Of a stretch of DNA of 28,657 nt, positions 1-26,980 are shown one piece after another. The stretch is from a virus. How positions within the stretch are numbered: the first letter of the stretch is position 1; each line of letters opens with the position of its first letter. Position numbers and translations under genes: made by a program. Location: positions 1 to 28,657 of IMG/VR virus record IMGVR_UViG_3300042516_003293; one strand, written 5' to 3'. The notes under the pieces are model-generated. The model did not search any database and was not told the origin of the DNA. It saw nothing but the letters and a program-made list of their open reading frames with translations.

Positions 1-33
1 GTGATCAATGACCGGAGGGCCGTTCGCGATCAC
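1..33. repeat. Intergenic palindromic repeat, copy 1
   Basis: Copy 1 of a 33-bp repeat that is identical in all four copies. Its ends are GTGATC and GATCAC, a 6-bp inverted repeat, with an inner CGG-AGGG-CCG hairpin. The TGA stop of the minus-strand gene at 30-443 lies inside its GATCAC end. The copy starts at the window edge, so its 7-bp left extension cannot be seen. Confidence 0.9.
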
Positions 34-443
34 GAAGCGATCATAGCAGCTTGCTTCAGGAAGTAGTTATCCGCATCCAAGCGGATGGCCCACTCGTCTG
101 AGCCCTGCCACTCGCCGTCTGCAGCATACCACTCGAAATTCCGCTGGCAGATCCCCTCGCCTGGAACGAAGGCCCCCAGTAGGGCATTCAGGCGTGACTT
201 CGTGGTGCTAGTGCGCCAGCCGCAGTCATCCAAGCGCATCCGCATGGTGTCGGGCTCGACCACGCCGATCAGGTAGCCGTGCAACCTGATCTCAATCTCG
301 CGGTAGTAGCCGGGCGTGTGGGCCGGGCCGTGATGTTCGACACAAACCTCAGTGTTGCCGAGCTTCAGGAGTCGCCCGGTCCTGCAGGAATCGTTGAGAG
401 CATCGCGGATGGCTTGGATCATCCGAGCTTCAGTCTTACGCAT
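30..443 (-). CDS. Small phage protein of unknown function (137 aa)
   Basis: I do not recognise a characterised function. The 137-residue soluble protein has no signal peptide or membrane segment. Its middle part (about residues 45-95) alternates beta-like stretches around RLHG and a GWRT-STTKSRLN segment; I recall similar short hypothetical proteins in phages of aquatic bacteria, unverified. The ATG at 443 is preceded by AGGGA, a good ribosome site, which is the left arm of a small GGGA/TCCC inverted repeat touching the start. Its TGA stop lies inside repeat copy 1, and repeat copy 2 lies about 20 bases upstream. This cassette layout and the minus strand set it apart from the late genes and suggest an early or accessory gene. 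Confidence 0.75.
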   Translation of the reverse strand: MRKTEARMIQAIRDALNDSCRTGRLLKLGNTEVCVEHHGPAHTPGYYREIEIRLHGYLIGVVEPDTMRMRLDDCGWRTSTTKSRLNALLGAFVPGEGICQRNFEWYAADGEWQGSDEWAIRLDADNYFLKQAAMIAS

Positions 444-453
444 GGGAGTTCCC
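444..453 (-). promoter_or_regulatory. Ribosome site inside a start-abutting inverted repeat
   Basis: On the minus strand GGGAACTCCC directly abuts the ATG of the 30-443 gene. The GGGA arm is the Shine-Dalgarno sequence and TCCC can pair with it. The same design precedes the next two genes. Confidence 0.55.
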
Positions 454-463
454 TGTTAACGAT

Positions 464-503
464 GGTGAGCGTGATCAATGACCGGAGGGCCGTTCGCGAT
501 CAC
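464..503. repeat. Intergenic palindromic repeat, copy 2
   Basis: Full 40-bp form: a 7-bp extension GGTGAGC at 464-470 and the 33-bp core at 471-503. It is identical to copies 3 and 4 over 40 bp. The TGA stop of the gene at 500-745 lies in its GATCAC end. Confidence 0.92.
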
Positions 504-745
504 GAGGCTGATACCTCCTGAAGATAGCACACCCCGTCGAACACTTCTGACCAGGCGCCGTTTAGGGCGTCTATGGCCGCCAGCGTCCTGGCCGCGTCGG
601 GCTGAGTGATCCTGCCGCTGGCCTCGTTGATCAGGCGGCATGCCTCCAGCATTCCGAGACGGAAGGCGGCTGCGGGGTCCTGCAGGCTTGCCGCTTCCTC
701 CTGCCGGATCTCCAGCTCGATTGCCATTTCTTTGACTGAAGCCAT
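500..745 (-). CDS. Small helical protein of unknown function (81 aa)
   Basis: I do not recognise this 81-residue protein. It is acidic to neutral, rich in Ala, Glu and Leu, and looks mostly helical, with no cysteine motif or membrane segment. The ATG at 745 is chosen because AGGGAG lies eight bases upstream; longer readings in other frames cross the repeat and lack such a site. The stop TGA is supplied by repeat copy 2, giving the same Ser-stop ending as the neighbouring 30-443 gene. A possible extended -10 (TGC TACAGT) lies 26 bases before the start. It belongs to the same repeat-bounded minus-strand cassette series as its neighbours. Confidence 0.7.
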   Translation of the reverse strand: MASVKEMAIELEIRQEEAASLQDPAAAFRLGMLEACRLINEASGRITQPDAARTLAAIDALNGAWSEVFDGVCYLQEVSAS

Positions 746-746
746 T

Positions 747-757
747 GGGATTCTCCC
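747..757 (-). promoter_or_regulatory. Ribosome site inside a start-proximal inverted repeat
   Basis: On the minus strand GGGA-GAA-TCCC lies one base before the ATG of the 500-745 gene. The GGGA arm is part of the Shine-Dalgarno sequence, so a 4-bp hairpin would occlude it. Confidence 0.55.
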
Positions 758-770
758 TGTGGTTGGATTG

Positions 771-779
771 ACTGTAGCA
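771..779 (-). promoter_or_regulatory. Possible extended -10 promoter
   Basis: TGC-TACAGT on the minus strand, 26 bases before the ATG at 745, resembles an extended -10. At 17-bp spacing the -35 position (794-799) falls inside repeat copy 3 and reads CATTGA, a poor match. Confidence 0.3.
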
Positions 780-782
780 CAC

Positions 783-822
783 GGTGAGCGTGATCAATGA
801 CCGGAGGGCCGTTCGCGATCAC
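783..822. repeat. Intergenic palindromic repeat, copy 3
   Basis: GGTGAGC extension at 783-789 and 33-bp core at 790-822, identical to copies 2 and 4. The TAG stop of the 822-977 gene shares one base with the repeat end. Confidence 0.92.
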
Positions 823-977
823 TAGCGATGCTTAACCACCTTGCAGCCCATGAGATCGCAGGAGTACAGGGTTGCGCTCGTGCTGCTGCTGCTGGGAATC
901 CTCATGCCGCCGAACGGCACAAGGATAGCGAAACCAGCGACGGTGCCGAGAACGATTGCTGCGATGGGTTGGAACAT
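822..977 (-). CDS. Small membrane protein (51 aa)
   Basis: I chose the ATG at 977, giving 51 residues, because AAAGGA lies nine bases upstream and a near-consensus promoter lies 23 bases upstream; an upstream in-frame start would put that promoter inside the gene. Residues 4-22 form one hydrophobic segment rich in Ile, Ala, Val and Gly, so it is probably an inner-membrane protein with a very short N-terminal end. A Ser-rich linker follows, then a tail with two cysteines (YSCDLMGCK). Function unknown; small phage membrane proteins serve in lysis, superinfection exclusion or host takeover, but nothing here picks one. It lies between repeat copies 3 and 4. Confidence 0.7.
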   Translation of the reverse strand: MFQPIAAIVLGTVAGFAILVPFGGMRIPSSSSTSATLYSCDLMGCKVVKHR

Positions 978-978
978 T

Positions 979-989
979 GGATTTGATCC
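979..989 (-). promoter_or_regulatory. Ribosome site inside a start-proximal inverted repeat
   Basis: GGAT-CAA-ATCC on the minus strand lies one base before the ATG at 977. The sequence differs from the two neighbouring genes but the 4-bp arms, three-base loop and position are the same. Confidence 0.5.
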
Positions 990-999
990 TTTCGGTTTG

Positions 1000-1028
1000 A
1001 TTGTAAGGCGTCCGCGTTCGGCTGTCAA
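1000..1028 (-). promoter_or_regulatory. Sigma70-type promoter for the 822-977 gene
   Basis: The minus strand has TTGACA (1023-1028), a 17-bp spacer and TACAAT (1000-1005). That is a perfect -35 and a one-mismatch -10 at ideal spacing. It points to transcription by unmodified host RNA polymerase, as expected for an early gene. Confidence 0.8.
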
Positions 1029-1046
1029 GTCGGCGGCAGTGGAAGC

Positions 1047-1086
1047 GGTGAGCGTGATCAATGACCGGAGGGCCGTTCGCGATCAC
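1047..1086. repeat. Intergenic palindromic repeat, copy 4
   Basis: GGTGAGC at 1047-1053 and 33-bp core at 1054-1086, identical to copies 2 and 3. It closes the cassette series on the right. No minus-strand gene is seen ending at it. Confidence 0.92.
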
Positions 1087-1261
1087 TGTGCTTGATAAAC
1101 ATAGCTCGGTACGATCGATTGCGAATGTATTGTGAGCTTGGTGTGCGCCAGGGATTTGGTCAGGGATTCGGCCAGACATCCGACCACCACTACCCCCCCC
1201 ACCCCCGATTTAGGAAAACTGGTCTTCAGTCAACCCCCCCACAAAATTTTTCAAAAAAACC
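1087..1261. other. Intergenic region with C-tracts between early and late genes
   Basis: No convincing gene. It contains an imperfect 12-bp tandem repeat (CAGGGATTTGGT then CAGGGATTCGGC, about 1149-1172) and three C-runs (C8 at 1193-1200, C5 at 1202-1206, C7 at 1234-1240). It separates the minus-strand cassettes from the plus-strand late genes. Confidence 0.5.
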
Positions 1262-1270
1262 GGTACGCTA
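1262..1270 (+). promoter_or_regulatory. Late promoter motif before the zinc-ribbon gene
   Basis: GGTACGCTA fits GG-N-A-N-N-(A/C)-T-(A/G). The -10 hexamer would be TACGCT; its last base is 21 bases before the ATG at 1290. Confidence 0.5.
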
Positions 1271-1514: not shown

Positions 1515-2021
1515 ATGGCATCACCATTATTACCATATTATAATGGATTGATGTTGACGGATTGGCTTGGCGTCCCTGGCGTTTACGATGGACGGATTGC
1601 CATGGGTGAATCCCTTAGGTATGTGATACAAGTATTTTGCAAGCGTGAGGGAAGGCCAAGTGAATTACCAGATGCGGACCTGAGAGGCCAGCAGATCCCA
1701 GGTGCCAGTGGTTTCAGCAATCAGTACAGTGGATATGCGTTACGTGTAGCTGATGTCAGCAGCGACAGCACATACGAACTGGATGGATCGCGGACGATAC
1801 AACAAAACAGCAGCGGTTTAACATTTCAGGACATATCGGGACATTATGACTATTTGGGCAATGGTCTCAGGGGTCAAATTCAACTGGGTTTGGATGCCCC
1901 CAGGGCTTATCAAATCACAAACATGGGAGGAGTATATAATGGTTCAGGTATTGACGAGTTGATCTATTCGGAGGTCCAGGGTGTACCAATCAGGATGACA
2001 ATTGGCCAGGTAACGACATGA
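1515..2021 (+). CDS. Probable neck or head-tail joining protein (168 aa)
   Basis: I do not recognise a named domain. The 168-residue protein is soluble, largely beta-strand in character, rich in Gly, Ser and Tyr, with no signal peptide. Its place is informative: it overlaps by four bases (ATGA) with a tail-completion-like gene and sits just before the tail chaperone, where long-tailed phages keep neck, adaptor and stopper genes. A role at the head-tail joint is an inference from order only. No Shine-Dalgarno sequence precedes the ATG, but a late promoter motif ends 29 bases upstream. AGG codons for Arg are frequent here and rare in the capsid gene. Confidence 0.55.
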   Translation: MASPLLPYYNGLMLTDWLGVPGVYDGRIAMGESLRYVIQVFCKREGRPSELPDADLRGQQIPGASGFSNQYSGYALRVADVSSDSTYELDGSRTIQQNSSGLTFQDISGHYDYLGNGLRGQIQLGLDAPRAYQITNMGGVYNGSGIDELIYSEVQGVPIRMTIGQVTT

Positions 2022-2548
2022 CGAAGGTCAGGATCAGATCTGGGATGAACCTGGCATCGGAGTTTGGGGATAAGTTATCGAATGAAATCAGCAAACAGTT
2101 ACGGGATCAAAAGATCGATATAAAATTTGACCTGGCCATTGGTTTCAGATTAACCTATAAGGTGAATAAAGACAGTATTACCAAGATCATATCAGAAATC
2201 AACGCAAGGGCAATGGATATTGTTGCTGGCGATATAGCGGACGCATTGAATGCTGCCATGAGCAGTGGGATATGGTCGGGTCAGGATCCTGATATTGTTG
2301 ACAGTGGGGCATTGCTAAGGTCATTGAGGGTGACCAGGGAGGGCAGCGACATACGCATCAGTTATTCGGAGCCGTATGCGGCATTGATACATTATGGTGG
2401 ATATGTAACACCGTACGGCAACAAGTCAGCGGAGCGTGTGTATATACCGGGGAAACCATGGGCAGAATCATTACTGTTTGGCGGCGGACCAATCGCGCAA
2501 TATGACTATTCGGCTGCATATAAAAAAGCACTAGCGAGCATAAATTAA
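2018..2548 (+). CDS. HK97 gp10-like tail completion protein (176 aa)
   Basis: The C-terminal half carries the pattern of the HK97 gp10/tail-completion family: DSGALLRSL near residue 91, then SYSEPYAALIHYGGYV, and a PGKPW near the end. These proteins help finish the tail or join it to the head. The N-terminal 80 residues are charged and helical. Length is within the family range (about 110-180). It overlaps the stop of the 1515 gene by four bases, which suggests coupled translation, and AGGT lies upstream of the start. Family assignment rests on motif memory, not on a search. Confidence 0.75.
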   Translation: MTKVRIRSGMNLASEFGDKLSNEISKQLRDQKIDIKFDLAIGFRLTYKVNKDSITKIISEINARAMDIVAGDIADALNAAMSSGIWSGQDPDIVDSGALLRSLRVTREGSDIRISYSEPYAALIHYGGYVTPYGNKSAERVYIPGKPWAESLLFGGGPIAQYDYSAAYKKALASIN

Positions 2549-2568
2549 CGAGCATCTGTGGGTAAATG

Positions 2569-2577
2569 GGTATACTG
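2569..2577 (+). promoter_or_regulatory. Late promoter motif before the tail chaperone
   Basis: GGTATACTG with -10 hexamer TATACT (2571-2576), 62 bases before the ATG at 2638. It overlaps a perfect 12-bp palindrome at 2573-2584. Confidence 0.5.
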
Positions 2578-2584
2578 TACAGTA
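2573..2584. promoter_or_regulatory. 12-bp palindrome overlapping a promoter
   Basis: TACTGTACAGTA is a perfect palindrome overlapping the -10 hexamer at 2571-2576. It could be an operator for a dimeric regulator. Only one copy was noticed. Confidence 0.35.
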
Positions 2585-2637
2585 CCACCAGGCAGGATAT
2601 CCAAAGTGCTGTCTGACATCAGATCAAAGGTTTGGAT

Positions 2638-3240
2638 ATGAGCAAGTTACCTTTTGTTGTTGAGCCACGGTTGGCACCACGCATCGAACGTATTGGCTCC
2701 GAGGATTCTGGTATCATCGAGATTGAGCGCAGGGGATATTTAACGAGTGGTGAAAAGAATTTTGTACAACAAATTGCGCAACAAGATACGGGCACGATGC
2801 GTTTGATTGAGCTTGCTCGATTGATTTCCAGGGAATACGACTTGGATTTGGAGTTGGCGTATGATTTATTGATAGCATCAATCACGAATCAGGTGCGAGA
2901 AGGTGTACGGGAAACGGAAATCATTGGTAACATTACGAAAGATTACAGCACCCAGGTACAGGATGTAATCAAAGAGATTGCAATTTCAAAATCAAGGGAA
3001 GAATTGGTGATGGCGGCGTGTCTGATCACGCATCGTGTCAACCGTGATTTTGAAACAGCAGACATCATGGAGGTGCATCCTGATATTATCAGCGCACTGG
3101 CGGAATTATACCGTGAAGAAGAAATGAAATCAATTACACGGTTACTGGGTAATTCCGAGGATGCTGCTGACAAGAAAGCTGATGAGGCAGTTAATATCGA
3201 GAAGATCGAAAAAAAGCGCAAGGTGACCCGAGCGAACTGA
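2638..3240 (+). CDS. Tail assembly chaperone, short form (G-like, 200 aa)
   Basis: Zero-frame product of a frameshifting tail chaperone locus. I chose ATG 2638 (AAAGG seven bases upstream) over TTG 2632. The 200-residue protein is mostly helical and charged and ends in a Lys-rich tail. In lambda, gpG and the frameshifted gpGT load onto the tape measure during tail assembly; both are absent from the finished virion. The evidence is architectural: a classical slippery heptamer A AAA AAG at 3210-3216, eight codons before the stop, with a long reading frame open in -1. The order is slightly unusual, because tail terminator and tube genes come after the chaperone rather than before it. Confidence 0.75.
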   Translation: MSKLPFVVEPRLAPRIERIGSEDSGIIEIERRGYLTSGEKNFVQQIAQQDTGTMRLIELARLISREYDLDLELAYDLLIASITNQVREGVRETEIIGNITKDYSTQVQDVIKEIAISKSREELVMAACLITHRVNRDFETADIMEVHPDIISALAELYREEEMKSITRLLGNSEDAADKKADEAVNIEKIEKKRKVTRAN

Positions 3241-3854: not shown

Positions 3855-4256
3855 TTAAGCTGCGTCTTTTTCTGGTGCCATTTGTGGTGACCAGTTACCA
3901 TTAAGCCACTGTCCAATGCGCCATTCAGCGATTGGGCTGTAGAATGATTGCTGGCGGTACCACGTTTTCCAATCCTGGGAGGCCTTTGAGTGATTACAGG
4001 ATACGCAAGCTGGTGTTATGTTATTGGTGCGATCTGGACCACCTCTGGATTTCGGCCTGATGTGATCTATTGTCAGACTCAGATCATCTATTGGCGGTTT
4101 GCCGCAATAAGCGCAACGATAATCCCATGCCCTTTTGATTGATTCTATCCATTGTTTGCGTGCCTCTTTGCGTGTTAAAGCAGACATGTTCGACAAATAA
4201 TCAGATGGGTACTGGTACAATGGCAAATCAACGATGCCATTTAGCCGTCCATTCAT
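3855..4256 (-). CDS. HNH homing-type endonuclease (133 aa)
   Basis: A free-standing HNH nuclease. The zinc knuckles are CAYC (residues 48-51) and CVSC (84-87); the catalytic motif has DH (64-65) followed by IRPKSRGG, then NN (78-79) and CNHSK (87-91). These are the parts of the beta-beta-alpha-metal fold that nicks or cuts DNA. The C-terminal WYRQQSFY...WRIGQWL segment resembles HNH proteins I recall from cyanobacteria and cyanophages. It points against the late genes and its stop directly abuts the stop of the chaperone gene. No intron is seen in the flanking genes, so it looks like an intergenic homing insertion. No Shine-Dalgarno sequence; the 29-residue ORF ends five bases upstream. Confidence 0.92.
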   Translation of the reverse strand: MNGRLNGIVDLPLYQYPSDYLSNMSALTRKEARKQWIESIKRAWDYRCAYCGKPPIDDLSLTIDHIRPKSRGGPDRTNNITPACVSCNHSKASQDWKTWYRQQSFYSPIAEWRIGQWLNGNWSPQMAPEKDAA

Positions 4257-6054: not shown

Positions 6055-9000
6055 ATGGCTGCCAACGATTCCATAGTCCTTGGCATAAAGACAGAGGATC
6101 GTGGTGCAGCGGCTGGGCTTATCCAGGCACTGGAAAAGGCGGGTCCAGAAGCGCGTGACGCATTACTTAATGCGCTTGGTGACAAAGCGGGAAAAAAGGC
6201 TAATCTTCAATTAGTAATCAAACCAGCCTTTGAGGGAGAGGACCTAGATAAGGTATTCAAGGGTTGGAATTATTCCCTTCAGGAAACTGGTTCATTACAA
6301 GACGAGCTAGCGAAGAAAGCGGAGCGCCTTCAAGGCGTAGAGAAGGGCAGCCTGACAAACCTCAGGGCGCTGGTAAACACATACAAACAGCAGCGAGACG
6401 CCCTATCGCCAACGTTAACTGCCACTGACAGCCTTGGCCGAAGGGTAAACATTGTAAACCAAGAGTGGGCGAATGCGAATGCCAAAGTAGAAAAATTCAG
6501 CCGCTTACTGAACATAGCTGGAGCGTCTAATTTCTGGGATCGCATTAAAGCGGAACTGAACCTGGGCCCACTACTGGCGGCCGGGCGTGCGGTAAGCGAC
6601 CTGGTCAATACGTTCCAAAGTTTGTCTATTATATTTGGACAAGTACAGGGCGTATTTAATACTTTTATTGATTCCCTGGGCAGAGTACAGCAAGTTGACC
6701 TGCTGTTCAAAAGTATTGGCCAAGGACCAGCGGATGTTGCCACTGTTTTCAGCGATTCAACCAGGATTGCTCTGACATATGGCACCAGTCTTAATGTAAT
6801 CCGAGAGGGCTTCGCCCAGTTAACGCCAGCCGTTGTTGCCGCCGGCGGCAATATCAACGATGTGTCTGGCATTGTGGCTGCTTTGTCAAGCAGATTTGCT
6901 GTTTTTGGACTTAGCGCTGACAAAACACAGCGCATAATGAATGGCGTCATCCAGGCCTTTGGTAAAGGCAAGCTGATGGCTGAAGAATTAAACCAGCAAA
7001 TAGCAGAAGCCGACCCTGCGTTTCGCATTGACCTGGTAAATGCCTTAAACAAGCTAGATCCTAAGCTGAAATTAACCACAGCCGGCTTAGGCGAAATGGT
7101 GAAGAATGGGGAATTAACAAACGATGTGCTGCTCAAGGTGCTGCCTGCGATGGGGAAAACCTCGTCAACTTTTGGCGCCCTGGGCAACAGTGCACTTAGC
7201 GCGTCTGTTGCATTGCTCAGGAATGCAGTAACAGTTGAACAGGTTAAGAATCAAATCGCTACGCTGAATCAACTAAACCTGGAGAGTTTAGCTAATCTGT
7301 TTAAGCCGTTACTGGGCTCATTTCTGGCTATTCAAGCCGCCGTAACAGATTTCACTACCGACATATTAAAGCTAGAGGTAACCAAGACCCTGATATCGGT
7401 ATTCAATAGCCTAGCTGTTATCATTGCTACCACCACTGTAGCCATCACGAAGCTGATAACAATTGTTGGATCCCTCCTTAACCCATTCTTGGGTGTAATA
7501 AATGTTGTCGATAGCTTACTTAGCAAGTTAATTGGCTTCAAGCCTATTGTAACTCTTATTGGCGTGGTTATCGCCGCAAATCTTGTCAGGACACTACTTA
7601 CCGCTGCCCTTAGCTTCAAGGCCGTTACTCAATCGGCTCTATTGTTCGGCACTGTACTGAAATCGACCCTTGTTGGTGGCATAGCTGGCTTCAATGCTGC
7701 TGTAACTGGTCTGACAAATATACTCAAGGGCAACTTCCTTGACGGCCTCAAGGGGTTGGCCAATGGTATTGGCGGATTCAACTTCCAGCTTGGAAAGACG
7801 AAGGGTGCAGCCGGTGCGGCAAAGGGTGCAACCAATGAATTTTCTAACATACTGGGCGTTTTACCTGGGGCATTTGCTGATGCTGTTGCCGCCCAAGAAG
7901 CGCTTAGTAATAGCAGCGACAAACAAAGAAACAAACTAGGCCAGCAGGGTAAAGCTGCAGGTGCAGCAGCGCAGGCCACCAGTGCTGCTGCTAATGCCAC
8001 CAGTGCTGCTGCTAATGCCACTGAGGGCGCCGCTGCCGCTGCTGGCTTAGGTGGTAAGGGCCTAGCTGCGTTGGGCGTTGCTGCCATTGTCGCAGGTGGC
8101 GCATGGCTTGCATATGAAAAAACCCTAAAGAGCTCCTGGGAGACGGGTGATACACTGAAGGAAGGCTTAAAATCAATAAACCAAGAACTGGCAAATCAAA
8201 AGACGGCACTAGAAAATACTGCCGATGGGGCGGAAACCTTTAAGCAGGATCTTCGAGAGTCTATCGCAGAAACCGATTCCTTAAAGAGGAATCTTTTTAT
8301 TATTGCTGGAATTGTGATTCCTGGCTTCACGCTATTTAATAAAACCGATTCCGATACCATCTCCGACATAAGGAATAACATTGGTCAGGTAAAGACTCAA
8401 CTAGAAGAAGTAGATGTTGAAGCCCGAAGAGTAACGACGGCTCTGAAGGATTACAACTCCGAGACCGCCGATGAGAGAGCGACGGCATTACTGAAAGCCA
8501 GGGTGGAAGCTCAGGTGAAATCATATGATGTTGTAATTCAAAAGCTGGGGCAACTCAGGGCCGAAAAACTGAAAGAAGCCAAATCCAGTGGAGGTGGACT
8601 CTCTCGGCAAGAAGCGGGCCAATTGATGTCATTATCCAAGCTGCTGGATGATGCTAAGGCCAAGAGAGAAGCGCTGAGAAAAGAAGCAGAAAACAAAGGA
8701 ATAAACGTAAAGGTAAATGACAACGAATTAAAAATAGGCACTCAAAGTCTTGCGTTGCTACAGGAACGAATCAAGACCTTGAAGGCAACAAAAGCAGAGG
8801 CAACGATTGGAACAAAGGGCTACAAGGAGGCTGAGGCACAAATTAAAAGCCTGGAAGGCTTGCTGAAGCTACTTGAATCAGACCCAACCGAAGTCCGAAT
8901 AAAAGTCAATTACGACATAAGTAAAGGGCAACTGGAATCTGCCGTAAGTCAAGCGCAGGCATTGGTTGAGCAATTCAAAGCTCGCCGGGATTTAATAGAA

Positions 9001-10824
9001 TCAGGGTATGACATTCTAAAGGCTGAGATTGGAGCACGAATTACCGCCGCCAAGGATGAGTTAGATACATTGAAGGACCGAGAGGCCTCCTCGGGTGCAA
9101 TAAAAGCAAAAGAAGAAGAAATTGAGGCACTCAAGAAACAGGCGGATAGTGTTGAACGTGCGGGGTTGGTCAATAGGCTGAACAGTCTTGGTCAATCGCA
9201 AAAACTAGAGCAAGAAGTGCTGCGGTTAAAGCAGCAGCAGGCCGCGCTAGATATTCAAAACAAAGTCCGCGAAGCAAATATTAAGTTAAATGAAGCTCAG
9301 CAAGTAATCAATCAAGCGGAAGCTGAGCGAAATAAAGCCGTCAACAGGGGTGTTTCGGGTGAAGCGCTTCAAGGTTATCAGCGTAATGTTGATTTAGCGA
9401 AAGAAAACTATGGCCTTCAGCTTGATATATTGAACGCCGAAAAATCAAGGCTGAATTCATTGCGGCAAACGCAATCAATAGAAACTGAAACACTGGGGAT
9501 AAAGCAAAAAACCGAGGAGGCTACCTTAAGATCTAAGGTAGCACAACTTGACACAGCTAAAGCAACAGCTCAAACCGCAGTAGCGACGGGATTGATAAGT
9601 AGTGCCACCCAGGCAGTATCCAGTGGTTTTATTCAAGTCGGCGATCAGATAAAACAACTCCCTGCCTCGGTTCAGGCTGCTAGCTCCAGCATTCAAACAA
9701 GCGCCGCCACTGCTACTGCCGCTGTGCTGGGCTCTGCGGAAGCCTATAGCAGGGTTTCGGCCGGCGCGAATGCAGCGACCAGCGCTACTGCCGCTTTAGC
9801 CGGTAGCATTATATCATCCAACGACAGCGCAAGAAGCAGCATTGGCCAACTGGGAGATGACATTGGCGGGGTTGCTGGGGAAGCCGCTAGAGCCTCTTCC
9901 GGGTTCAGTGGTATCAGCAGTGCAGTCCAGGCTATTAACACTCAGCGTTTGGCTGAACTAAAAACCACTCTTTCGGACTCTAAGGAAGAAGCATCTAATG
10001 TTGCTGCAGAGCTTGCAAATACTGGTTCAGTCGGCGGTGCTCTGGCTTCGTCTATTCAGCCCTTTACTAACAGCATAAGCGCCACCAAGGATGCCACAAA
10101 CATCCTGTCCGATTCAATATCTAAACTACCAACAGATGCTGCGGCCGGTCTTTCTGACTCATTCGAGGGAGCGGCAATCAGTGCAGGCCTGATAGCTAGT
10201 GCTGATATTGGTGGATCCGTTGGTGCAGCAACAAGAAACAGTAGCGTATTCAGGGACAGCATGTTAGGGGCCGAGGGGGCTGTCGATGGTATCAGATCAA
10301 AGTTACTAGAGCTTGATGGTTTAACAGTTAATGTCAAAGTTGGCGTTGAGGGTGGAGTGCCCGCAAGATGGGCTGGCGGTCCGGTATCGGCTGGGACAAT
10401 GTATCGAGTAAACGAACTAGGAAAAGAATCGTTCCTGTCCGCTGGCGGCAGGTTGTCTGTTATCAACCGACCGGAAAACAGCACATGGAGACCGCCTACT
10501 TCTGGTACGATCATACCAGCACATCTGACTGCTGCGCTTGACATCCCACGAGGTGGAATCAAGTTGCCATCTGGCGCTTCTTCTCGTCTGCACAGGGCAT
10601 CTCGTGCCACCGGCGGCAGTCGTAATGTCTCCGATGCCGTCAAGGCAATTGCCGTGAATATGGACACCGGTTACTTGGCACGGTCCCAGGCGACCCAAGC
10701 GCAGCAATTGGGCAAGCTAACCATGGCCATAAACGAATTAACAAGAAAGAACTGGAACGTTGATGTAAAAGTCAGGAATACTGGTAGTACAGCTTACTTG
10801 GACGCCTTAAACCAGAGACTGTAA
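6055..10824 (+). CDS. Tape measure protein (1589 aa)
   Basis: The longest gene in the window, after the tail tube, as expected for the protein that sets tail length and leaves with the DNA. Residues about 210-400 carry the tape measure core (around GTSLNVIREGF and MAEELNQQIAEADPAFR). Hydrophobic stretches lie near residues 443-520 and 664-689 and may enter the host membrane. An Ala-rich part near 640-690 contains a perfect 21-bp tandem duplication. Residues about 780-1170 are long charged coiled coils. At the usual 0.15 nm per residue the tail would be about 240 nm long. There is no Shine-Dalgarno sequence. The stop TAA shares one base with the next ATG. No lytic or peptidase motif was recognised. 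Confidence 0.93.
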   Translation: MAANDSIVLGIKTEDRGAAAGLIQALEKAGPEARDALLNALGDKAGKKANLQLVIKPAFEGEDLDKVFKGWNYSLQETGSLQDELAKKAERLQGVEKGSLTNLRALVNTYKQQRDALSPTLTATDSLGRRVNIVNQEWANANAKVEKFSRLLNIAGASNFWDRIKAELNLGPLLAAGRAVSDLVNTFQSLSIIFGQVQGVFNTFIDSLGRVQQVDLLFKSIGQGPADVATVFSDSTRIALTYGTSLNVIREGFAQLTPAVVAAGGNINDVSGIVAALSSRFAVFGLSADKTQRIMNGVIQAFGKGKLMAEELNQQIAEADPAFRIDLVNALNKLDPKLKLTTAGLGEMVKNGELTNDVLLKVLPAMGKTSSTFGALGNSALSASVALLRNAVTVEQVKNQIATLNQLNLESLANLFKPLLGSFLAIQAAVTDFTTDILKLEVTKTLISVFNSLAVIIATTTVAITKLITIVGSLLNPFLGVINVVDSLLSKLIGFKPIVTLIGVVIAANLVRTLLTAALSFKAVTQSALLFGTVLKSTLVGGIAGFNAAVTGLTNILKGNFLDGLKGLANGIGGFNFQLGKTKGAAGAAKGATNEFSNILGVLPGAFADAVAAQEALSNSSDKQRNKLGQQGKAAGAAAQATSAAANATSAAANATEGAAAAAGLGGKGLAALGVAAIVAGGAWLAYEKTLKSSWETGDTLKEGLKSINQELANQKTALENTADGAETFKQDLRESIAETDSLKRNLFIIAGIVIPGFTLFNKTDSDTISDIRNNIGQVKTQLEEVDVEARRVTTALKDYNSETADERATALLKARVEAQVKSYDVVIQKLGQLRAEKLKEAKSSGGGLSRQEAGQLMSLSKLLDDAKAKREALRKEAENKGINVKVNDNELKIGTQSLALLQERIKTLKATKAEATIGTKGYKEAEAQIKSLEGLLKLLESDPTEVRIKVNYDISKGQLESAVSQAQALVEQFKARRDLIESGYDILKAEIGARITAAKDELDTLKDREASSGAIKAKEEEIEALKKQADSVERAGLVNRLNSLGQSQKLEQEVLRLKQQQAALDIQNKVREANIKLNEAQQVINQAEAERNKAVNRGVSGEALQGYQRNVDLAKENYGLQLDILNAEKSRLNSLRQTQSIETETLGIKQKTEEATLRSKVAQLDTAKATAQTAVATGLISSATQAVSSGFIQVGDQIKQLPASVQAASSSIQTSAATATAAVLGSAEAYSRVSAGANAATSATAALAGSIISSNDSARSSIGQLGDDIGGVAGEAARASSGFSGISSAVQAINTQRLAELKTTLSDSKEEASNVAAELANTGSVGGALASSIQPFTNSISATKDATNILSDSISKLPTDAAAGLSDSFEGAAISAGLIASADIGGSVGAATRNSSVFRDSMLGAEGAVDGIRSKLLELDGLTVNVKVGVEGGVPARWAGGPVSAGTMYRVNELGKESFLSAGGRLSVINRPENSTWRPPTSGTIIPAHLTAALDIPRGGIKLPSGASSRLHRASRATGGSRNVSDAVKAIAVNMDTGYLARSQATQAQQLGKLTMAINELTRKNWNVDVKVRNTGSTAYLDALNQRL
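7976..8017 (+). repeat. Perfect 21-bp tandem duplication in the tape measure gene
   Basis: Two identical 21-bp units (7976-7996 and 7997-8017) encode ATSAAAN twice in the Ala-rich segment. In-frame slippage here would change tape length by seven residues. Confidence 0.85.
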
Positions 10825-11573
10825 TGACCGTAACCATCTCCAGTCTGACCATAGATAAATTAACGGCGCAGCCATTTGGGTATGACGATCAAGGGGTTCT
10901 GGTAGGTCGCACTTCGCGCAAATTCAGCATAAACGGACTGGTTACGCCTAGTGAATGGTTGGATCTCGTAGATATTTACGATACTTGGCGCAACACCAGA
11001 ATAGACGAACAGGATCCAGCCATCTCTGGTGTACTCGGTAGCACCGTTGGCTTCAGTGGTACCGGTCCAGGCGGTCAGACATGGACTGATATTGAATGCT
11101 GGTTTATCAGTGCGCCAAGTGCTGAGCAAGCGGGTGCATGGCTGTCTGTAAATGTCGAACTAGTAGACGCAGGGCAAGCCTTAGAAGTAATATTAAAGCA
11201 ACAATTAGACGAGTCAGGGCAGAGCGAACTGAAGCCTGATTTTGGTACTATTACGCTTGGCTCTACGACTTTAACATTAACAAAACCGGTTGATACCTAT
11301 GGTCCAGGTCCGACTCTGGAATTGACGGCCGCCGGTACTCATTACCTGTCTGGCCCTTTGACAGTATACAAAATAAAAGACGTCGAGGGAACTACAAATT
11401 TGGCAGGCTGGGATGATGTACGCAGTTGGTATGAAAGTCAAATTGTGGCAGTACCACTTACTGGCAGCTATTTTCCAATAAGTCCACCAACTGCGACGGC
11501 TGAGCGCAAGATAATCAGCGGAAGTCCGGCGGATATTTACACGGTGTCGATTCAACTTGGGCTGGTGATGTAA
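10824..11573 (+). CDS. Probable distal tail protein (249 aa)
   Basis: First gene after the tape measure, overlapping it by one base, the usual place for the distal tail (Dit-like) or lambda M/L-like protein that connects tube and hub. The 249-residue protein is beta-rich, Thr/Gly/Ser-rich, without cysteine clusters. The first 110 residues (ITISSL-type start, then SRKFSINGLVTPSEWLDLVDIY) fit a ring-forming beta domain; the second half looks like a separate beta domain around TLTLTKPVDTYGPG. No decisive motif is seen, so the call rests on order and fold character. One base separates it from the next gene, so the two are surely co-transcribed. Confidence 0.55.
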   Translation: MTVTISSLTIDKLTAQPFGYDDQGVLVGRTSRKFSINGLVTPSEWLDLVDIYDTWRNTRIDEQDPAISGVLGSTVGFSGTGPGGQTWTDIECWFISAPSAEQAGAWLSVNVELVDAGQALEVILKQQLDESGQSELKPDFGTITLGSTTLTLTKPVDTYGPGPTLELTAAGTHYLSGPLTVYKIKDVEGTTNLAGWDDVRSWYESQIVAVPLTGSYFPISPPTATAERKIISGSPADIYTVSIQLGLVM

Positions 11574-19735: not shown

Positions 19736-22327
19736 ATGACCACGCCTTCGCCCAGAAATCCAATCAGAATTGCCCGTGGTCTGTATGCAGATCTGTTGGC
19801 ATCTGTAGCGGATCTTTGGGAAGGTGAAATTTGTTTTGCGCAAGATCAAGATACGTTATATGTAAAAGAGAATGGCGCCCTGACACTGGCTTCTGGTGGC
19901 GTCAGTTCATCTTTGGTGCGTGAAATAATTGGCATTGACCAAACTGGCGAACCGATGGGTCACGCCAATCGCGCAGATAGCAACATTTCATTTGACAGCG
20001 GCGAGCGAGTATTTACAATTGAGCCGACCAGTGCATCATTTGACGTATGGTGTCGCGGCATCAAGCACACATACTTCAGCGAGCAAACTGTAACTATACC
20101 TGATGCGACTGGGCTGTATTATGTGTATTTTGATGAAAATGGTGACCTGCAATACCAGACATCATTTTTTGATCTGGAATACCAGGCGCCAACGGCTTAC
20201 ATTTACTGGAACGGCGATACAAACCAAGCTGTATATTTTGGCGATGAGCGTCACGGCATTGTGCTGGACTGGCAGACGCATGAATACCTGCACAGGACAC
20301 GCGGTGCTGCGTTTGCAAGAGGGCTGGAGCTGGTAAGTTACACCGTAACTGGCGGCGGTGCAATAAATGCAGATGCGCAAGTCAGCCTGGAAAATGGAGT
20401 ATTTTTTGATGAAGACATTGAAATAGATGTCACCCATTCCGCCGATCCTGTTCCTAATACATGGCAACAAGATTTACAGGGGCCCGCGCTGATCCCAGTC
20501 TTATGGAGAAATGCTACTTCGTGGACACTTGATGTCGCTTCTGAATATCCACTGAAGGCTGGTACCCTCAGGCCACAATATAACCTAGAGGGGATTGGTG
20601 GATCATGGAGCGCAGTTGATGTTGCTGCTAACAAATATGTCTGCGTATTTGTTATTGCTACAAACAACTTAAACCACCCTGTTGTCTGTATTCTTGGTCA
20701 GGAGCAGCACAACAACTTAGCTGCCGCTCAAACCGAGACCTGGTCTACGCTTAACCTGACGGGATTCCCTTCGCTTGAATTCAGACCATTATATCAACTG
20801 ATCTATCAATGCGGTGCATACGGCAACGCAATCGCCGCCAGGCTCAGGGGTGTCTCTGATCTGCGTTACACGCAAGCAGGTATTTCAATTACCGGCCAGG
20901 TGGGTGCGACGGGTCCAGTGGGCGCTACCGGTGCTATCGGTGCCACTGGTGCAACAGGCATCGGAGAGACCGGTCCTACCGGCATCGAGGGACCAACAGG
21001 TATTACCGGACCCGTGGGCCCGACTGGGCCGATTGGCATTACCGGGCCAACTGGAGTGGATGGTCCGACTGGAGCAAGTGGCCCAACTGGACCGACTGGG
21101 CCCATTGGTGTCACTGGTGCTACTGGTGTGGTCGGTCCCAGCGGACCCACTGGGCCAACTGGCCCTACAGGCCCTATTGGTATCACTGGCGCCACTGGTA
21201 TCGAAGGACCAAGCGGCCCCACCGGGCCTACGGGCCCCACGGGTCCAACTGGACCAATTGGAATTACTGGCGCCACTGGTGTAGTTGGCGTGTCCGGCGC
21301 CACCGGCATTGTCGGTCCCAGTGGTCCCACTGGCCCTACCGGTCCGATTGGCTCAACTGGCCCAACTGGTGTTGCTGGTATCAGCGCAAGTGGCAGAATT
21401 TGGTATTTTGCGCAAGCAGCTTCTGATATCAGTGGATATGAAACATTGCAGCCAGATTCGCCCGATTCGGCGCCGCAAGATGATATGACCGCTGTTGTCA
21501 CTAGCTCCAGTGGTGAGGTACTGATCAATGAGTTTGCCACCGCCGTTGGTGACCCCGATCTCGAAGAACTGCCAACCGGTGAGTATGAGATTCGCTTTTG
21601 GGGCTATGTATCGAGCAACGATGGCGACACGCGGCTTGTGTTCCGTGTCTACAGACGTGCTACGAATGGCACCGAAACTCAGTTATTCTATTTGGATTCA
21701 CCTGAGATTGATGCAACTGCAGCCAGTTACTATAATGAAATCCTGGTCAACACTCAGCCCAATGTAATCGACCCCAGCGACCGTATTGTAACAAAAGTAT
21801 ACGCAAAGACCACCAGCAGCAGCAATATAACTGCACACTTTGTGCATTCTGGTACAACGCCTAGCTCCTGGAGGACCGCTGTTACGTTGGGCTATGTGGG
21901 CCCCCAGGGCCCAACTGGTCCAACTGGCGTAGATGGACCGACTGGCCCTGTTGGCATTACTGGAGCGACTGGTCCAGGGGGCCCAACTGGTCCAACTGGC
22001 GTAGATGGACCGACTGGTCCTAGCGGAGCAATTGGCGTCTCTGGCGCGACCGGACCGACCGGCGTTGTTGGCGTAACTGGTGCTACAGGTGTCGTTGGCA
22101 TTACCGGCGCCACTGGGGCTGTTGGTGTAACGGGCGCCACAGGGGTCGATGGAGTCACTGGAGCAACGGGTGTTGTTGGCGTAAGCGGTGCTACCGGTCC
22201 CACTGGCGTCATAGCGGATGGCAATAAAGGAGATATTACCATTTCAAGTAATGGTATGTTATTAACAGTTAATCCGGTCGTTTATGGCCGACTTCTTGCT
22301 GCCCAGTACGGTGCAGCAATGCCCTGA
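19736..22327 (+). CDS. Large collagen-like tail fibre (863 aa)
   Basis: Residues 1-60 ([20 protein letters not shown]) look like the virion-binding head found in cyanophage-type fibres, from memory. Residues about 60-388 are beta-rich. Residues 390-547 are 52 Gly-X-Y triplets with one break, G-I-GET, near residue 410. Residues about 550-720 form a globular jelly-roll-like domain ([16 protein letters not shown] to VTLGYVG). Residues 722-823 are 34 unbroken triplets. The end is a [19 protein letters not shown] cap of the kind seen on phage fibres. Thr dominates the Y position (GPT, GAT, GIT), unlike the charged collagen upstream. A 39-bp direct repeat in the second block shows recent in-frame expansion. 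Likely a long host-binding fibre. Confidence 0.85.
21907..22017 (+). repeat. 39-bp direct repeat in the second collagen block
   Basis: Two 39-bp copies (21907-21945 and 21979-22017) are identical. The start-to-start distance is 72 bp, or eight Gly-X-Y triplets, so frame and triplet phase are kept. Confidence 0.8.
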
Positions 22328-25493: not shown

Positions 25494-25826
25494 GTGGTTC
25501 CAGGTCGATACGATATTACAGTCCATCAAAGGGCAACCTTTGAGCGCCAAATCACTCTTGGTATCGACCTGAGTGGCCATGCTGTTTACGCACAGATCTG
25601 GGACTCACTAAAAAGACGAAAGAAAATAGCTGATTTTGAAATAACGATAACGAATGCCGCCACTGGTGAGTTTTTGATGGCACTAAGCTGGGAAGATACG
25701 ACGCCACTCAGGAAAGGAGCTGTTTGGGATTTAATGGTTGAATACGCAGATAACAGCAGGGATTACTGGCTGGAAGGCTCTGTTTCCATTGATCCTGGTT
25801 TAACCGCTCCAGAGGATGCAGGCTGA
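25494..25826 (+). CDS. Fibre-module beta-sandwich protein (110 aa)
   Basis: A 110-residue protein starting with GTG and running [17 protein letters not shown]. The pattern, an opening strand with ATF, a central [18 protein letters not shown], and a final [15 protein letters not shown], is that of small phage proteins found beside tail fibres, sometimes as the N-terminal domain of baseplate or fibre proteins (BppU-like, from memory). It probably attaches the collagen protein encoded next, since its TGA shares a base with that ATG. There is no Shine-Dalgarno sequence; the start is supported by the promoter motif. Confidence 0.65.
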
Positions 25827-26980
25827 TGCCCGATATTACCGTACAAATTGTCACCAATGTCGCTGCTGTTGCAGTTGGCGCTGATGCCGTTGTTGAAACA
25901 GTAACGATTTCTGACGTTGGCCCGCAAGGCCCACAGGGTGCTTCTGGGCCCACTGGCGTACAGGGTGCAACCGGCGTGATGGGGTCTACTGGTGCCCAGG
26001 GGGCAACCGGCTCTGTCGGGCCTACCGGCGACGTGGGCGTGACCGGCGTTACTGGTGTCACCGGTGCCACTGGTATCACTGGAGCCACTGGTGTTACGGG
26101 TGACGCTGGCGCTACTGGCATAGCGGGAGTCACGGGTGCCACTGGTGTGGGAATCACAGGACCAACAGGTGCCACAGGTGTAGGAATAACAGGTGCCACA
26201 GGAGTTGTTGGAATTACGGGAGCAACAGGTGTTCAAGGTACTACAGGTGCTACAGGCGTCGCGGGTCCCACTGGTGCAACCGGCGTTGGCGTGACCGGAG
26301 CTACCGGCGTCGGCGTAACTGGTGCCACGGGTGTTGCTGGTGTTACTGGCGCTACGGGCGCTGTTGGTGCAACTGGCGTTGGTATGACCGGCGACCCAGG
26401 TGCCGACGCACTCTGGAACTTCCGGGGATCGTATAACGGTGGCCTGGACTACGCAGTCGGCGATGTTGCGACCTATGACGGGGAGACCTGGTACCGGATC
26501 AACGCCAATGGTGGCAACGTCGGTGACACGCCATCCGAGGGAACTTTCTGGACCAAGCTCGCGGCGCGTGGCCAAGATGGAGGAGGAGGTGGTGGTGGTG
26601 GTGGATCGCTAGGCTCCACAACCCTGTCTTATACCACGCCACTACTTGCTGCCGGGGACTACGATGACATCACCCTGGCGGGTGGCAATGTATTTAACCT
26701 GCTGGCGATTGGCGCATCTACGCCCGCATGGATTCGTGTTTACGGAACATCTACCGCTAGAGCTGCCGATACCAGAACCGCCCCTGGGGGAATTCCTCCT
26801 GGGTCGGGAAATGATTACTATGCCGAATTGGCAACTGTTGCATCCCCTCAAACCATCAGGTTTTCCCCGGTACCAGTGGTACAGGGAACATCTGGGAATG
26901 CTTATGTGCGGGTCAAAAACCTGGATGACTCTGCACAGGCAATAGAAATCGACTTTACTGTTCTGACTCTGGAATCCTGA
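25826..26980 (+). CDS. Collagen-like fibre with carbohydrate-binding module (384 aa)
   Basis: Residues 1-31 are a short beta-like head. Residues 32-194 are Gly-X-Y triplets, Thr-rich in the Y position, with five one-residue breaks of the form GAT-GV-GxT. Residues about 195-248 resemble a CBM5/12-type carbohydrate-binding module: [20 protein letters not shown], then [10 protein letters not shown] poly-Gly hinge of at least nine Gly follows, and residues about 262-384 form a beta domain ([19 protein letters not shown]) that I recall from cyanophage-type structural proteins. It is coupled to the 25494 gene. Likely a second trimeric fibre that touches host surface sugars. Confidence 0.82.

Follow-up and report, generated by a model that had tools for sequence, protein, structure and literature searches.

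Short palindromic repeats as probable joints of a small-gene array in cyanosiphoviruses

Introduction

The stretch of viral DNA analysed here would begin with the right end of an array of small accessory genes found in cyanosiphoviruses related to S-CBS2 and the S-CRES phages. We consider, with a probability of roughly two in three, that this array occupies a fixed locus, that it is shuffled by the phages' own annealing recombination at its repeats and that the same repeats also end the genes. The unit would be one small gene, rarely two, between directional palindromes of ~40 nt. Comparison of related genomes shows whole genes to have been moved, lost and reordered, the repeat being the joint.

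Four identical repeats and three genes

The window, namely the whole stretch of 28,657 bases, opens with four exact copies of a 33-nt imperfect palindrome, GTGATCAATGACCGGAGGGCCGTTCGCGATCAC, at positions 1-33, 471-503, 790-822 and 1054-1086 (no match in 100 dinucleotide-preserving shuffles). A 40-nt form opening with GGTGAGC starts at 464, 783 and 1047, the first copy being cut by the contig start, and the 28,657-base record holds no copies beyond these four. The first-pass annotation, made from the letters alone, had described identical copies (33 nt, or 40 nt where complete) splitting three minus-strand genes, which exact matching confirmed. It had also spoken of palindromes and of perfect identity: the inverted arms are indeed present, GTGAGCGTGATC and GTTCGCGATCAC, but they mismatch at two variable positions, and perfect identity holds for the window copies, whereas the copies of most other arrays average ~77-92% alike. 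The features of this region are:

1-33, plus strand: repeat R1, 33 nt, truncated at the contig start (exact copy; covariance model 45.5 bits)
464-503, plus strand: repeat R2, 40 nt (exact copy; covariance model 60.4 bits)
783-822, plus strand: repeat R3, 40 nt (exact copy; covariance model match)
1047-1086, plus strand: repeat R4, 40 nt, nearest to the structural module (exact copy; covariance model match)
30-443, minus strand: cassette gene 1, 137 aa, PF23790 Kyano_Gp96 family (Pfam 5e-17; phrog_554 5.6e-20)
500-745, minus strand: cassette gene 2, 81 aa, TGA stop within R2
771-776, minus strand: extended -10 of gene 2 (TGC-TACAGT), between the gene and R3, close to the latter
822-977, minus strand: cassette gene 3, 51 aa, hydrophobic N-terminus, TAG stop abutting R3
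1000-1028, minus strand: sigma-70-type promoter of gene 3, TTGACA-17-TACAAT, 11/12 consensus matches

The stop codons proved to lie as initially claimed, TCA (that is, TGA) at 30-32 and 500-502 being within repeats and the TAG at 822-824 sharing base 822. Gene 1, whose TGA stop falls within R1, has a 21-nt leader without promoter and belongs to the cyanophage family Kyano_Gp96; its cassette has homologues in the related records G007 (73% nt identity, from repeat to nearly the next repeat) and G030 (77% nt), and its predicted structure is poor (pLDDT 45). Family searches (Pfam, phrog) gave no match for gene 2. Regarding gene 3, a longer frame starting at a TTG was rejected, the ATG at 977 being the likelier start (51 aa), with the near-consensus promoter upstream at 1028-1000; its product, with the hydrophobic N-terminus, may be a small membrane protein. 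No tRNA or tmRNA attachment site was found in the window and an Rfam search gave no match.

The repeat family

The first-pass annotation had proposed to look for the repeat in the rest of the genome and in related phages. While the record itself gave no more copies, exact 33-nt copies occur in three further IMG/VR records, and the family as a whole, searched with degenerate patterns and a covariance model built on 28 copies, extends to 20 IMG/VR records (some representing one phage twice) and to the cultured phages S-CRES1 and S-CRES2. The largest array has 12 full copies (G008). The family consensus is nTGAnCGTGAnCAA(n)CCGnAGGGCCGnTCACGnTCAn, each arm being made of two GTGANC-type hexamers (GTGANC-GTGANC / GNTCRC-GNTCAC); mismatches are frequent at the two variable positions, which do not covary, and the inner CCGnAGGGCCG is conserved beyond pairing needs.

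Several of these traits would suit an operator or another protein site, the GTGANC hexamers being bound by a repressor, a silencer or a replication protein that coordinates the array: two hexamers stand in each arm, 20 columns are invariant in 28 copies, no covariation was found within array repeats in the 28-copy alignment and the 33-nt repeat is exact between phages whose structural proteins are only ~38% identical. We nevertheless judge such a function unlikely to be the main one, as the copies are located at gene ends and not over recognisable promoters, no protein linked to the array is a candidate for binding and the repeat-bounded reordering described below is not explained by binding alone.

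In cultured S-CRES1, two copies flank gp61-gp62 (OQ587939, 32280-32882; L142, 4586-5188), gp62 terminating at the TGA of the repeat, and S-CRES2 (OQ587940) has a repeat pair at the same place. With a repeat pair in a cultured phage, the system is thus open to laboratory test. The record annotates gp62 as an S-adenosylmethionine hydrolase. No repeat match was found in the 18.5 kb around the locus in S-CRES3, nor in S-CBS2 (67.5 of 72.3 kb in one scan, the whole record in another). When the isolates were searched by blastn with a 58-nt query spanning one repeat, S-CRES1 was missed; the arm scan and the covariance model detected it.

A host origin of the repeat was considered and rejected, 84,980 prokaryotic genomes yielding only chance matches and a single family of unrelated palindromes. 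The latter, GTGATCGCAGGGCCGAAGGCCCGTCCGCGATCAC, belongs to a Deltaproteobacteria MAG (isolate RH-26jul17-416), where it is present in at least nine copies, most of them near contig ends (CANJUR010000xxx contigs L055, L073, L074, L076, L088, L102, L103, L115 and L118); these palindromes are probably a REP-like family whose likeness to the phage repeat is convergent.

Locus and right border of the array

The genes to the right of the array form a structural module of cyanosiphovirus type, with the Synechococcus phages S-CBS2 and S-CRES1-3 as relatives; the protein encoded at 2638-3240 is 37-39% identical in amino acids to its S-CBS2 and S-CRES counterparts. Two features delimit this side:

1193-1262, plus strand: conserved noncoding element, right border of the array, CCCCCCACCCCCGATT ... 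CAAAATTTTTCAAAAA, ~15 relatives
1515-3240, plus strand: right anchor, start of the structural module (genes 1515-2021, 2018-2548 and 2638-3240), ordered homologues in relatives

Homologues of the right anchor keep their order in G007, G008, G011, G005, G024, G014, G030, S-CBS2 and S-CRES1, and in those records whose length permits a judgement, the array is immediately to the left of the structural module. Among these phages, G011 is 95.8% identical to the window across 23.7 kb, and both ends of its record fall where the array would be expected. G007 (85,756 nt) is a more distant relative and, given its 127-nt terminal overlap, probably a complete genome. In 16 of the 19 records not judged complete, the outermost repeat is at most 600 nt from the record end, a position that would fit equally a region varying within the population and an assembly break caused by the repeats.

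The border element itself spans ~70-80 nt of the form CCCCC(C)ACCCC(C)GATT-N20-CCCCCTCTAGAAATTTTTnAAAA, with G-tracts on the minus strand, and is found once per locus, between the array and the structural module, in ~15 diverged phages including S-CRES1 and S-CRES3 (among others, L007, 258; L134, 2548; L136, 2664; L122, 14958; L142, S-CRES1, 5203; L182, S-CRES3, 5359). Candidate roles are a late promoter or leader, an origin and a packaging site. Farther into the window, an HNH endonuclease-like gene lies reversed within the structural module (3855-4256, minus strand), the equivalent place being occupied by an HNH gene in S-CBS2, S-CRES1 and S-CRES3, and two tail-region genes contain long collagen-like Gly-X-Y tracts built of related units (20891-22217 and 26033-26405).

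Anatomy of the arrays

Repeat orientation is uniform within each array (head-to-tail), and the spacers, of 186-564 nt (median 305), usually contain one gene each, rarely two, with a median of 79 aa, as called by a simple script. With spacers of this length that are nearly all coding, and not short, uniform and noncoding, a CRISPR array was dismissed. Among 62 array genes, 43 are on the minus strand and 19 on the plus strand. Exact termination at the outer TGA (repeat columns 2-4) is seen for 35 of the 62, and 41 have their stop inside the repeat, 38 of these being in the outer-TGA frame (binomial p = 2e-15), a bias that may reflect selection for a stop instead of a targeting step. Both ends of the repeat bear an outward-facing in-frame TGA-NCG-TGA, and, as the reading frames show, the repeat supplies stops.

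Promoters lie outside the repeats and vary between cassettes. A -10-like element, often extended and ~30 nt before the ATG, is present upstream of about two thirds of the first 46 genes; with a promoter-like element of their own, these cargo genes could work in any order. Of the 46, 13 have only a leader of 17-27 nt after the repeat, without visible promoter. Cargo genes are mostly without assigned function. One cargo protein, of family F3 (L134, 780-1226; L026, L051, L175), has invariant STA-N-HP ... FRA-HDWxH ... QxQKLV motifs and a confident AlphaFold2 model (pLDDT 92), with no match in a PDB search (best E 0.36).

The outward TGA at both repeat ends is also compatible with the repeat being mainly a gene-end RNA hairpin, involved in transcription end, processing or stability, the shuffling being then a passive by-product of repeated homology. 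We regard this as a real possibility, although not the favoured one. It is supported by intergenic hairpins outside the arrays (G007, 8418-8456 and 10242-10277; G011, 73847-73887; G008, 55877, 56239 and 57926; G025 (L051), 11247-11281), which have the same outer arms (GAnCGTGA ... TCACGnTC) with unrelated complementary inner stems, compensatory evidence suggesting that the arms belong to a wider gene-end hairpin type of these phages. Folding is consistent with it as well, the family having a mean z of -2.0 on the plus strand and -2.9 on the minus strand, and one window copy folding moderately (-12.1 kcal/mol, z -1.5). However, most arrays are devoid of a U-tract. In the window, no intrinsic terminator was called at the repeats and they have no T-run; with little T enrichment across the family (T content after repeats of 0.32 and 0.22 vs 0.17-0.26 overall), the repeats are hence not classical intrinsic terminators. 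Moreover, compensatory covariation is missing inside the array, the inner CCGnAGGGCCG is more conserved than pairing demands, and the 13 genes whose leader directly follows a repeat would need read-through.

Cassette shuffling between phages

At the same locus, different relatives have different genes between the repeats, and homologous repeat-gene-repeat units vary in order between phages; for instance, the protein families F1 and F2 follow each other as F1-F2 in G007 and G025 and as F2-F1 in G024. At the nucleotide level, many homology blocks begin and finish at repeats. Close pairs are few and only one, G025 and G032, has a cassette identity of ~90% or more: its backbone is 75.7-79.9% identical and its three common cassettes 90-94%. 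The order in G025 is F19, two others, F3, F1, and in G032 it is F3, one other, F19, F1. Of this pair's 11 interior block ends, nine are in a repeat or at most 1 nt from it (counted with 1-nt margins, the repeats cover 12% of the array), the other two being 37-39 nt outside. All arrays except those of S-CRES1/2 are metagenome-assembled; as the shared cassettes differ by 6-10%, a simple assembly mix-up is argued against. The idea that gene orientation is fixed per cassette was abandoned, because the orientation of F1 relative to the repeats is inverted in G030 and a second family (G007/G030) breaks the rule too.

The initial suggestion that the repeats are recombination points bounding cassettes is therefore strongly supported by varied genes at one locus, by reordering and by repeat-to-repeat homology blocks. 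When gene content between copies is compared across relatives, as the first-pass annotation had advised, both content and order vary, with joints at the repeats; the conservation of gene order in all relatives, named there, together with a lack of the repeat in the rest of the genome, as what would speak against exchange, is not what is seen, since order differs between phages.

The same comparison bears on the possibility of a self-mobile, MITE- or REP-like palindrome inserting at stop codons, in which the repeats move and the genes do not. Although several identical copies do adjoin stop codons, this explanation is largely refuted and appears to us highly improbable: the units shared between phages consist of the gene with both repeats and change order, the copies are confined to one locus and no Y1 transposase (PF01797) was found in any of 12 records.

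Similarity among repeats

Two repeats from one array resemble each other more closely (0.83) than two from separate arrays (0.73). When homologous cassettes of different phages are compared, their flanking repeats show no greater similarity than other pairs of repeats, and deep comparisons gave no linkage of repeat halves to cassettes. A repeat is thus a property of its array and, unlike an integron attC site, does not travel with a cassette. Across 10 arrays and 70 repeats, adjacent copies resemble each other more than other pairs in the centre (0.885 vs 0.781) and the right arm (0.904 vs 0.844; permutation p = 2e-4 each), the left arm giving p = 0.13, and small repeat changes run as a gradient along the G008 array. 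Such a neighbour pattern would be expected from cassette insertion turning one repeat into two, and likewise from local gene conversion. Local duplication or conversion would also suit the perfect identity of the window copies, since in other arrays, too, neighbours are more alike than distant repeats.

These results have to be set against integron-like site-specific recombination, in which the repeats would be attC-like sites, folded as single strands, then cut and joined by a tyrosine recombinase, either one of the host or one of a family not recognised. In favour of this, the arrays consist of one-gene cassettes, the imperfect palindrome is directional and frequently contains the stop codon, its mismatches are conserved and the minus strand folds (mean MFE -17.2 kcal/mol); moreover, some phages hold attC clusters without integrase (PMC9892861). 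Conversely, the RYYYAAC...GTTRRRY layout is present in 0 of 81 repeats (GTTRRRY anywhere in 3), genes are on both strands (43:19), repeats go with the array and not with the cassette, and sequence as well as structure is conserved, without covariation. In addition, none of the array phages searched, among which G007 is apparently complete, gave a match to tyrosine or serine recombinases (PF00589, PF00239). We therefore find this mechanism improbable, and the resemblance to integrons noted in the first pass holds as an analogy only, attC boxes, recombinase, uniform gene orientation and cassette-linked sites all being missing. The single PF00589 match came from a relative without repeat array, G015 (IMGVR_UViG_3300035670_000114), which does encode a tyrosine recombinase (25660-26172; 4e-20).

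Recombination machinery and proposed mechanism

Genes of an annealing pathway are present in these phages. A Sak/Rad52-like SSAP is encoded by G007, G008, G011 and S-CBS2 at 49-51% aa identity to the S-CRES1 protein, a PF12684 RecE-like exonuclease by all six searched records longer than 59 kb, and an SSB by array phages. Rad52-like phage recombinases are able to exchange short, diverged sequences (PMC3945230). With these genes present and no site-specific recombinase family found, we infer homologous exchange at the repeats.

In the mechanism that we propose, the repeat would have two jobs. The first is gene closure: having outward TGAs on both ends and a foldable strand, it ends a gene arriving from whichever side, as the sequence shows, with a putative effect on termination or RNA stability. 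The second would be to offer a common homology for cassette exchange, insertion, deletion and occasional inversion, the Sak/Rad52-like SSAP, the RecE-like exonuclease and the SSB presumably acting on ~40 bp of homology and cassette insertion presumably converting a single target repeat into two. The sequences show the array, its locus, the reordering with repeats as joints and the frame in which the stops lie; which enzyme acts, the duplication of the target repeat and any benefit to the phage are the parts that we infer. Two observations weigh against annealing recombination as the driving force: identical homologies of 24-40 nt are near the lower limit for its efficient action, and S-CBS2 has the same SSAP and exonuclease, yet no array.

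A more speculative proposal is that these phages evolved a locus dedicated to gene exchange, comparable to an integron but lacking an integrase, in which the palindrome would be kept uniform by insertion-linked duplication and conversion. An unrecognised site-specific recombinase or repeat-binding protein might serve this locus. A uniform, symmetric stop-codon palindrome would then allow any relative's cassette to fit in either direction. We consider this rather doubtful and retain shuffling by the phages' own annealing recombination as the best explanation.

Comparison with known systems

Among described systems, the arrays come closest to the PeSLs (promoter-early stem-loops) of T4-like phages, short conserved elements between genes at which small genes are shuffled; work by Arbiol in 2010 and Comeau in 2014 reportedly credited them with shuffling by homologous recombination. 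As with PeSLs, a short intergenic stem-loop is repeated among small accessory or early genes and marks the borders of shuffling. However, a PeSL combines an early promoter with a stem-loop, while the cyanophage repeat has no promoter inside, is symmetric with stops at both ends and is found in cyanosiphoviruses at a single locus in one orientation. A passage of PMC4503421 cites the PeSLs of T4-like phages for small-gene shuffling.

CALINs lack an integrase by definition, and those of phages are closest in layout, failing on attC boxes and orientation. Integron arrays and phage CALINs (PMC9892861) share with the cyanophage arrays one-gene cassettes, head-to-tail directional palindromes, a stop often located in the site and a mostly uncharacterised cargo; in contrast, the cyanophage arrays have no attC boxes or integrase match, their genes are on both strands, many with their own promoters, and their sites are homogenised per array.

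The likeness to mycobacteriophage repeats raised in the first pass is partial. Among the start-associated repeats (SAS/ESAS) of cluster K mycobacteriophages, an ESAS precedes the translation start, accompanied by a 13-bp SAS, and remains associated with its gene family (PMC3203893). These too are short dispersed repeats, containing imperfect inverted repeats, beside small non-structural genes, but the cyanophage repeats are found at gene ends, on stop codons, and do not stay with the gene. The Campylobacter group II phages CP21/CP220 have repeat blocks of 1-2.9 kb, made of 72-86 bp units, between modules of 28-55 kb (PMC4546147); there as well, repeats border homologous modules that get rearranged, whereas in cyanophages a single 40-nt repeat stands between single genes.

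Finally, the differences from REP/BIME palindromes deserve attention. The latter are imperfect, 35-40 nt long, located directly after stop codons and associated with RAYT transposases; the cyanophage arrays have no Y1/RAYT transposase, take the form of an array and move the gene with the unit.

Concluding remarks

Phage mosaicism has mostly been inferred from scattered junctions, whereas here exchange is seen at defined, gene-sized joints, with cassettes that are traceable between phages and within cultured S-CRES1. Phage genomes are usually without repeated sequences (PMC3945230), a statement to which the cyanophage repeat array is a clear exception. The array provides a natural setting in which to ask whether short repeats and a phage annealing recombinase suffice for a cassette system of the integron type. 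It also draws attention to a pool of small accessory genes, for the most part uncharacterised, in the viruses of Synechococcus, an important primary producer.
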